Positions 1 to 3,398 of a stretch of 64,000 nt of DNA are shown in pieces (the first letter of the stretch is position 1; each line of letters begins with the position of its first letter). Source of the DNA: Clostridiales bacterium (GTDB taxonomy: Bacteria > Bacillota > Clostridia > Oscillospirales > Oscillospiraceae). The position numbers and the translations under genes were made by a program. The stretch covers positions 22,544-86,543 of the forward strand of contig JAJPXB010000019.1 of NCBI GenBank assembly GCA_021205695.1. Reading direction: 5' to 3'. The notes beneath the pieces were generated by a model that did no database searches, was not told the DNA's origin, and saw only the letters and a list, made by a program, of their open reading frames with translations.

Positions 1-75
1 TCCGCCGGACGAATCGGCTGTAAAGCAGTCAGCAGTGTCCAGCCCGCATCCCGCTGCCGCACGGGGAAGTCGTTT

Positions 76-116
76 CGGGATGCAACACCGTTTTTGCGGC
101 GGGCATCCCGTTTTTT
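76..116 (+). terminator. Intrinsic terminator / possible attenuator upstream of folT-like gene
   Basis: CGGGATGC(76-83)...GCATCCCG(103-110) followed by TTTTTT(111-116). Confidence 0.75.
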
Positions 117-143
117 GCTCTGTGTGGCCCTGCCAGAAAAGGA

Positions 144-767
144 GTGTCACCCGTGAGAGAGCATGAGAGAAAAGACGGCCTGTTCGCCGCCTCCGCCCGG
201 TGGCTGAGAGAGCCCAGAGCGTTGGCGCTCGCGGCCCTGTTTGTGGCCATCAGCGTCACTCTGGACCTGCTGAACATCCGCATCCAGATCACCCCACAGC
301 TCCGCATCACCTTCGGCTATCTGTGCGACGCCTCCATTGGGATGCTGTTCGGCCCGGTGGTGGGCATGGCGGCGGGGGTGTGTACCGACGTGCTGGGCTA
401 CCTGATGAACACCGGGGGCGGGGCCTATTTCCCCGGCTACACCCTGACGGCCATCGCCGGAGGACTGATTTACGGCGTGGTGCTCTGCCGCCCGTCAGAG
501 CGGAAGGGGTTCCGTCTGCTCCGGTGCTTTATCGCCAAAGGGCTGATCAATTTGCTGTGTAATATGCTGCTCAACACCTTCTGGCTCTCTCTGACCGGTG
601 GGGACGGGTTTTTGGCGCTGCTGCCCCTCCGGGCGGTGAAAAACGCCCTCCTGTGGCCGGTCGAGAGCGTGCTTCTCTATTTCGTGCTGGAGGCGGTGCT
701 CCGTATCAGCCTTCGGTTCCCCGCCCTCCGGCAGGCGCCCGGGGGAGGTGTCCGCCATGACCTATGA
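144..767 (+). CDS. folT: Folate-type ECF transporter S component (QueT/FolT-like membrane protein)
   Basis: ORF 207 aa; hydrophobic S-component-like sequence (LRITFGYLCDASIGMLFGPVVGMAAGVCTDVLGY); overlaps folC. Confidence 0.75.
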   Translation: MSPVREHERKDGLFAASARWLREPRALALAALFVAISVTLDLLNIRIQITPQLRITFGYLCDASIGMLFGPVVGMAAGVCTDVLGYLMNTGGGAYFPGYTLTAIAGGLIYGVVLCRPSERKGFRLLRCFIAKGLINLLCNMLLNTFWLSLTGGDGFLALLPLRAVKNALLWPVESVLLYFVLEAVLRISLRFPALRQAPGGGVRHDL

Positions 768-2031
768 GGAGGCGCTGGCCTACATCCACTCCACCCACTG
801 GCAGGGGAAGCGTCCTGGCCTGAACCGGGTGCGGGAACTGCTGGGGCGGCTGGGCGATCCCCAGCAGCGGCTCCGGTTCGTCCATGTGGCGGGCACCAAC
901 GGCAAGGGCTCCGTCTGCGCCTGTATGGCCTCCGTTTTGCAGGCGGCGGGCTACCGGACAGGGTGCTTCACCTCCCCCTTTCTGGAGCGGTTCAACGAGC
1001 GGTTCCAGATCGACGGCGTGCCCATCTCTGACGAGGCCCTGTGCCGCCTGACGGAGCGGGTCCGCCCCGCCGCCGACCAAATGGAGGACGCCCCCAACGA
1101 GTTCGACCTGATCACCGCCCTGGCCCTGGTCTGGTTTGCGGATGAGGGGTGCGACATCGTGGTGCTGGAGGTGGGCCTGGGGGGCACATTGGACCCCACC
1201 AACGTCATCGACTGCCCTGACCTGGCGGTGATCACCGCCCTGGGGCTGGACCACACCCGGCAGCTGGGAGACACCCTCCCGGAGATCGCCGGGGCCAAGG
1301 CGGGCATCATCAAGCCGGGGGGACAGGTGGTCTACTACGGCGGGGCGCCCGAGGCCGATGAGGTCGTCCGGCGGGTCTGCCGGGAGCAGGGGGCGGCGCT
1401 GACCGTTCCGGACTGGTCCCGGCTGGAGGTGCTGGCCTGGGAGCCGGACTGCACCCTGATGTCCTATGACGGGCTGGACGGACTCCGTCTCCCCCTGCTG
1501 GCGGCCTACCAGCCCCGGAACGCCGCCCTGGCGGTCACCGGGGCCAGGCTGCTCCGAGACCGGGGCTGGCACATCCCGGAAGCGGCCATCCGGCAGGGCA
1601 TCGAGACGGTGCGCTGGCCGGGGCGGTTCGAGCTGCTCCGACGGGAGCCCCCCTTTCTCCTGGACGGCGCTCACAATCCCCAGGGCGTCCGGGCCACGGC
1701 GGAGAGCCTGCGGCTCCGGTATCCGGGGCGGCGGTTCGTCTTTCTCATGGGGGTCATGGCGGACAAGGACGCCGCCTCCATGATCGCGCCCCTGGCGCCC
1801 CTGGCGGAGGAGTTCGTCACGGTGACGCCCCCCTCTCCCCGCTCTCTCCCGGCAGATACGCTGGCAGAGGAAATCCGACGCCGCACGGGATTGCCTGCAC
1901 GGGCCTGCGGCTCCATAGAGGAGGGGGTGGAGCTCGCTCTGGGCCGGTGCAGACCCGATACGGGGGTCTGCGCCCTGGGCAGCCTCTACTTCTCCGCCGC
2001 CATCCGTCAGGCGGCGAACGCACGGTTCTGA
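757..2031 (+). CDS. folC: Bifunctional folylpolyglutamate synthase/dihydrofolate synthase
   Basis: HVAGTNGKGSVCA P-loop, FTSPFLERFNERF, LDGAHNPQG motifs; start at 748 or 757. Confidence 0.93.
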   Translation: MTYEEALAYIHSTHWQGKRPGLNRVRELLGRLGDPQQRLRFVHVAGTNGKGSVCACMASVLQAAGYRTGCFTSPFLERFNERFQIDGVPISDEALCRLTERVRPAADQMEDAPNEFDLITALALVWFADEGCDIVVLEVGLGGTLDPTNVIDCPDLAVITALGLDHTRQLGDTLPEIAGAKAGIIKPGGQVVYYGGAPEADEVVRRVCREQGAALTVPDWSRLEVLAWEPDCTLMSYDGLDGLRLPLLAAYQPRNAALAVTGARLLRDRGWHIPEAAIRQGIETVRWPGRFELLRREPPFLLDGAHNPQGVRATAESLRLRYPGRRFVFLMGVMADKDAASMIAPLAPLAEEFVTVTPPSPRSLPADTLAEEIRRRTGLPARACGSIEEGVELALGRCRPDTGVCALGSLYFSAAIRQAANARF

Positions 2032-2080: not shown

Positions 2081-2115
2081 CGGCCCGTCTGATATGTCAG
2101 ACGGGCCGCTTTTTT
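2081..2115 (+). terminator. Intrinsic terminator after folC
   Basis: CGGCCCGTCTGatatgtCAGACGGGCCG then TTTTTT. Confidence 0.85.
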
Positions 2116-2282: not shown

Positions 2283-3398
2283 GTGAGACGATTGGCACTG
2301 ACGGAACGGCGCAGGAAGATCCTGCGGGTAGTGGTGGAAAACTACATCGAGACGGCGGAGCCCATCGGCTCCAAGGCCATTGCGGAAAAGGCTCAGCTCA
2401 CCTGCTCCTCCGCCACCATACGGAATGAGCTGGCAGCGCTGGAGCGGGAGGGCTACCTGGAGCAGCCCCATACCTCCGCCGGGCGCATCCCATCCCCGCA
2501 GGGCTACCGGCTCTACGTCAACGAGCTGATGGAGCAGCATAAGCTGTCCCTTCAGGAGACGGAGCGGATCAACGCGGCCCTGGACGGCAAGATGCAGGAG
2601 CTGGATCGGGTCATCGATCAGGCGGGCCGCCTGGTCAGCCAGATGACCAACTATCCGGCCTTCTCCCTGGCGGGGGGCGGCGATCAGATCACCATCACCC
2701 GGTTCGACCTGCTGATGGTGGACAAGAGCTCCTTTATCGCAGTGGTCATGGCCAGCAACAACGCCGTGAAGAACAAGCTGATCCATCTCCCCACCGACAT
2801 CACCGAGCCACAGCTCCAGCTGCTCAACACCCTGCTGAACACCACCTTTACAGGCAAGAGCCTCTCTGAGCTGAATCCGGAGCTGATGCGGGTGGCGGAG
2901 AAGGCCGCAGGCTCCTCCTACGGGCTGATCTCCCTGGTTGTATCCTTCGCCATGGATGTGCTGGAGGAGCTGGGACACAGCACCGTGCGCACCTCCGGCG
3001 TGGGACACCTGCTGGAGAGCCCGGAGTACCAGGACATCGATAAGGCGCATAAGCTGATGACCTATCTGTCCGACGAGCCGGAGTTCTCCAAGCTGTCCGC
3101 CCCCATGCTCCAGAGCGACGCGGACACCAAGATCCTCATCGGACCGGAGAACGTGGCGGAGGAGCTGAAGGATACCAGCGTGGTTTTGGCCAGCTACGAC
3201 ATCGGAGAGGGCATGAAGGGCGTCATCGGCGTCGTCGGCCCCACCCGGATGGATTACGCCAAGGTGACCGCCAAGCTGTCCTACCTGGCGGACAACCTGA
3301 GCAAGATGTTCAGCAGTCCGCAGCAGAGCCAGCTCCCCCAGAAGCGGGAGGCTCCGGCCCTGAATCCGCCAAAAGAACCGGCGGGCGAAGATCACTAG
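2283..3398 (+). CDS. hrcA: Heat-inducible transcriptional repressor HrcA
   Basis: RRRKILRVVVENYIETAEPIGSKAIAE N-terminus; downstream of CIRCE; GTG start. Confidence 0.96.
   Translation: MRRLALTERRRKILRVVVENYIETAEPIGSKAIAEKAQLTCSSATIRNELAALEREGYLEQPHTSAGRIPSPQGYRLYVNELMEQHKLSLQETERINAALDGKMQELDRVIDQAGRLVSQMTNYPAFSLAGGGDQITITRFDLLMVDKSSFIAVVMASNNAVKNKLIHLPTDITEPQLQLLNTLLNTTFTGKSLSELNPELMRVAEKAAGSSYGLISLVVSFAMDVLEELGHSTVRTSGVGHLLESPEYQDIDKAHKLMTYLSDEPEFSKLSAPMLQSDADTKILIGPENVAEELKDTSVVLASYDIGEGMKGVIGVVGPTRMDYAKVTAKLSYLADNLSKMFSSPQQSQLPQKREAPALNPPKEPAGEDH

Follow-up and report, generated by a model that had tools for sequence, protein, structure and literature searches.

The window, i.e. the whole 64-kb stretch of DNA submitted to analysis (G000:C41:22544-86543), opens within the leader of two overlapping genes, folT and folC (Table 1). 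We worked on an extended locus, L002, that includes the upstream DNA and in which the window position equals the L002 position minus 4000. A promoter-like TTGTAA-16-TATAAT is found at L002:3862-3889, just 5' of the riboswitch aptamer described below. The reading frame of folT opens at GTG 144 and its start is probably GTG 153 rather than GTG 144, since relatives have an ATG at the equivalent position. Further downstream, a CIRCE operator of textbook form (TTAGCACTC-N9-GAGTGCTAA) is located at 2229-2255, directly 5' of hrcA (2283-3398), with a promoter-like TTGACA-17-TATAGT nearby at 2196-2224.

Table 1. Features of the folT-folC leader and its neighbourhood (window positions unless L002 is indicated).
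Feature	Position	Strand	Remarks
malQ	L002:2231-3724	-	Upstream neighbour, divergent
THF-I riboswitch aptamer	L002:3935-4058 (window -65 to 58)	+	Rfam RF01831; window part 1-58 is the 3' part
J2/1 joining strand GCATCCCG	46-53	+	Also antiterminator 5' arm; aligned to RF01831 consensus GCAUcCg
P1 3' strand CTGCC	54-58	+	Pairs with GGCAG at L002:3935-3939 (alignment; pairs checked)
Helix A 5' arm GCCGCACGGGG	56-66	+	Overlaps P1 3' strand, pairs with 118-128; proposed remnant anti-sequesterer
Switching strand CGGGATGC	76-83	+	Antiterminator 3' arm or terminator 5' arm
Intrinsic terminator	76-116	+	Stem 76-83/103-110, T6 at 111-116
Helix B, SD-pairing hairpin	117-145	+	GCTCT...TGGC/GCCA...GGAGT; weak in this species
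Helix A 3' arm CTCTGTGTGGC	118-128	+	Doubles as 5' side of helix B
folT Shine-Dalgarno (SD) AGGAG	140-144	+	From the sequence; conserved in relatives
folT, folate-family ECF transporter S component	153-767	+	TIGR04518, 116.9 bits (cut-off 60)
folC, folylpolyglutamate/dihydrofolate synthase	748-2031	+	TIGR01499, 369 bits (cut-off 162.65); overlaps folT
Terminator 3' of folC	2081-2115	+	12-bp stem, 9 GC pairs, then CTTTTTTG

The original prediction was built on three 8-mers followed by a T-run. These are exact in the sequence, with GCATCCCG at 46-53, CGGGATGC at 76-83, GCATCCCG again at 103-110 and T6 at 111-116. Both strands of the window were scanned for the pattern 'A ... rc(A) ... A + T-run' with k=8; this arrangement was the single match on the + strand and none was obtained on the - strand. 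When 64 kb were simulated 60 times with a first-order Markov model, no arrangement with a T-run appeared, and dropping the T-run requirement yielded 0.12 arrangements per 64 kb. A chance repeat is thus ruled out. The terminator hairpin (76-110) has a predicted energy of -20.8 kcal/mol (z = -5.5), equalled by 0/200 shuffles. For the antiterminator hairpin (44-86), the value is -16.9 kcal/mol and is equalled by 13/200 shuffles, so that energy alone is no proof of this helix.

An Rfam search of the window sequence alone returned no known RNA family, because the window edge cuts off more than half of the aptamer. The original prediction recognized no THF aptamer in the visible part and cautioned that the upstream portion was missing. 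This caution was well founded: with the upstream DNA, the leader matches RF01831 with 62.8 bits (cut-off 36, E ~1e-13) over the full model (1-99 of 99), and the genome contains no other THF match. In the RF01831 alignment, the core motifs GAGUAG, ACGGGGAGUUG, GACGAA and GCAUCCCG are intact, and strand 46-53 sits immediately 5' of the P1 3' strand. The J2/1-L3 pseudoknot has been described as the functionally important ligand site of THF-I (PMC9881143), and its J2/1 and L3 motifs are both present here at the sequence level. The original prediction overlooked two points: 46-53 belongs to the aptamer, and the terminator is enclosed by another platform, of the translational type.

The leader thus shares with THF-I the aptamer core, P1-P4, the conserved J2/1 GCAUCC and L3, as well as a position before folT-folC and a Firmicutes-type host (Clostridiales MAG relatives). 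In Firmicutes, folC, folE and folT are under THF-I control (PMC9881143), and the genes downstream of this leader are of the same folate context. It differs from THF-I by an added hairpin at the three-way junction and by a terminator platform nested in helices that form a translational platform in related genera. RF01831 was the only folate-riboswitch family matched in the leader, Rfam giving no match to THF-II or any other class, and a THF-II identity is accordingly ruled out. THF-II (the folE motif) also senses reduced folate, but has another fold, Gram-negative hosts and an RBS located within P1 (PMC9881143).

We then compared the leader with those of the same genus. Among 32 genomes, 14 have a folT match and 13 a THF aptamer, in each case beside folT. 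The fourteenth folT, in G005, has ~140 nt of contig on its 5' side, the contig being apparently L030 (JAJQHP010000099.1). None of the 32 genomes carries the switch without folT, which suggests that the two have been gained or lost together. In all 13 leaders, the aptamer is followed after some 17-21 nt by a complement of J2/1, and then by a terminator; L008 is included in this count, since its stem is followed by TTTCCC, although it falls below the T-count of the automatic scan. Pairing of 76-83 with either the upstream or the downstream copy, as originally proposed, is kept in the 13 leaders. A covariation check on homologous folT leaders had been suggested, and the terminator stem does covary: 93.2% of its cells are paired, and both partners are altered in three pairs, for example from CG to UA in L024 and from AU to GC in L008 and L009. 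None of 500 shuffles reaches the covariation score of this stem, which also lies above that of all slid versions. The antiterminator has 98.1% of its cells paired. It cannot covary, as segment 46-53, invariant in the 13 leaders, is fixed by the aptamer, and its evidence therefore consists of the conservation of the partner strand only.

Strand 76-83 can pair with 46-53, inside the aptamer, or with 103-110, as in a terminating platform. In stepwise folding, the optimal structure of an RNA ending at 83-95 consists of the aptamer core and the antiterminator, with P1 absent; from 110 onward, the terminator prevails. The fold combining P1 and the terminator (-96.1) is less than 1 kcal/mol apart from the overall optimum (-97.0), and the fold with the antiterminator forced reaches -94.0. 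Since these folds leave out the pseudoknot and the ligand, we infer the direction of the response, as we do the identity of the ligand and termination itself.

The aptamer match, the two exclusive helices, the operon and their conservation support the attenuation originally proposed before a folT/folC pair, both genes matching their families above cut-offs. We thus consider it very probable, on sequence grounds, that a THF-I (RF01831) riboswitch controls folT-folC by transcription attenuation and is off with ligand. Since 46-53 is J2/1, next to P1, and the published ligand site is at J2/1-L3, the bound aptamer should retain this strand. Binding of a reduced folate would stabilize J2/1 and P1 and keep 46-53 occupied; 76-83 would then pair with 103-110 to form the terminator, and RNA polymerase would halt at 111-116. 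When the ligand is absent, 46-53 would leave the aptamer to pair with 76-83 as the antiterminator, allowing read-through into folT-folC. The leader therefore belongs to a riboswitch class already known, and its expression platform is slightly unusual; we regard the nesting of platforms and the hairpin at the junction as modest departures.

One could object that a hairpin followed by a T-run at 76-116 makes a good terminator in itself, and that it could be the ordinary intrinsic terminator of the upstream gene, the copy at 46-53 being coincidental. The original prediction would have been refuted by such a gene ending close to position 46, together with a 46-53 segment not conserved in related genomes. 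But malQ, on the minus strand, points the other way, and 46-53 is a fixed part of the THF aptamer, invariant as reported above; we reject this explanation, to which we grant practically no chance.

Another objection comes from the 19-nt hairpin that the RF01831 alignment places between P2 and P3, at L002:3957-3977, upstream of the window, and which likely turns the three-way junction into a four-way junction. A hairpin of varying sequence occupies this place in 8 of the 13 genus members, is missing in the other 5, and is seen in several other genera too. Between relatives, a change on one side of the added stem is accompanied by one on the other (GGCAGC/GCTGCC, GGCGGC/GCCGTC and GACGGC/GCCGTC in different species). 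It could be argued from this insertion that the aptamer is degenerate or re-targeted, the hairpin altering its ligand or its mode. This seems to us very improbable: the core motifs are intact, the gene context is that of folate, and close relatives lacking the hairpin have the same switch before folT. The extra hairpin might alter the affinity of the aptamer. We also note that it adjoins the reported FA3WJ ligand site, and that it recurs in L002, L017, L019-L022, L024, L026, L023, L067-L069, L071 and L073.

The THF aptamer was found in 220/301 genomes of the family. Most of the leaders examined from other genera have no such terminator. What these leaders have is a C/U-rich strand with TGTGGC at its end and two alternative partners, either the SD region (helix B) or residues at and just after the P1 3' strand (helix A). 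When 24 distinct leaders of these other genera were tested, a leader's own partners were favoured over swapped ones (z -5.1 for A and -6.8 for B; 0/5000 permutations each), so that the translational platform is real in these genera. In the genus of the window, the terminator is located in the loop of helix A. We infer from its wider spread that the translational form is ancestral, the terminator of the genus having been set inside an older platform.

Other arrangements were observed in the family. Different terminator-like hairpins occur in a few members beyond the genus (L040, L049). In L038, L046, L050, L051 and L058, the P1 3' strand continues straight into CTGGAGGT, with a start codon ~10 nt on; the SD would apparently lie in or beside P1, and a direct occlusion of the RBS, dispensing with a separate platform, is possible there. 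Several genomes of the family (G250, G129, G176, G182, G339, G079 and others) contain two or three THF riboswitches.

One would also wonder whether the older platform still works in the present species. This would add to control by attenuation rather than replace it: a single THF-I aptamer would drive two stacked switches, a new terminator reusing J2/1 in the loop of the anti-sequesterer and a working SD-sequestering switch. In read-through RNA with P1 broken, helix A (56-66/118-128) would keep the SD accessible, while P1 held by the ligand would release 118-128 and the SD would be hidden by helix B. Besides the test in other genera, this idea is favoured by the presence of helix A and a comparable SD-pairing hairpin B in 13/13 same-genus leaders, and by the covariation of helix A (88.8% of cells paired, three pairs with double-sided changes, a score that none of the 500 shuffles and no slid version attains). 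On the other hand, helix A in this species is strong, at -19.2, against -7.3 for the weak helix B, so that losing just the three pairs overlapping P1 may leave helix A closed. The helix B hairpin of the window is ordinary (-9.9 kcal/mol, z -1.6, equalled by 18/200 shuffles), and the swap test within the genus (6 distinct leaders) is not significant, ~13-14% of permutations being as good. We therefore put forward this dual control as a tentative proposal, possible but somewhat doubtful.

A parallel can be drawn with the dual-expression-platform riboswitches (PMC2258182), where one aptamer also governs elements able to stop transcription and then to block translation. In the case described, the RBS falls inside the 3' arm of the terminator, whereas in the present leader the SD hairpin is distinct from the terminator and the latter sits in the loop of the anti-sequesterer helix. 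A literature search found no report of a dual platform for THF-I, a weak negative given its incomplete coverage of subscription journals.

Altogether, this analysis would place folT-folC of this Clostridiales lineage under a clear folate-dependent control. It also offers good sampling of a riboswitch class that relies on SD sequestration in most relatives and, in one genus, on a terminator. If the dual control is true, the stacked switches would make visible an intermediate stage in an evolution from translational control to control of transcription. As the older helices remain, this route is directly testable.
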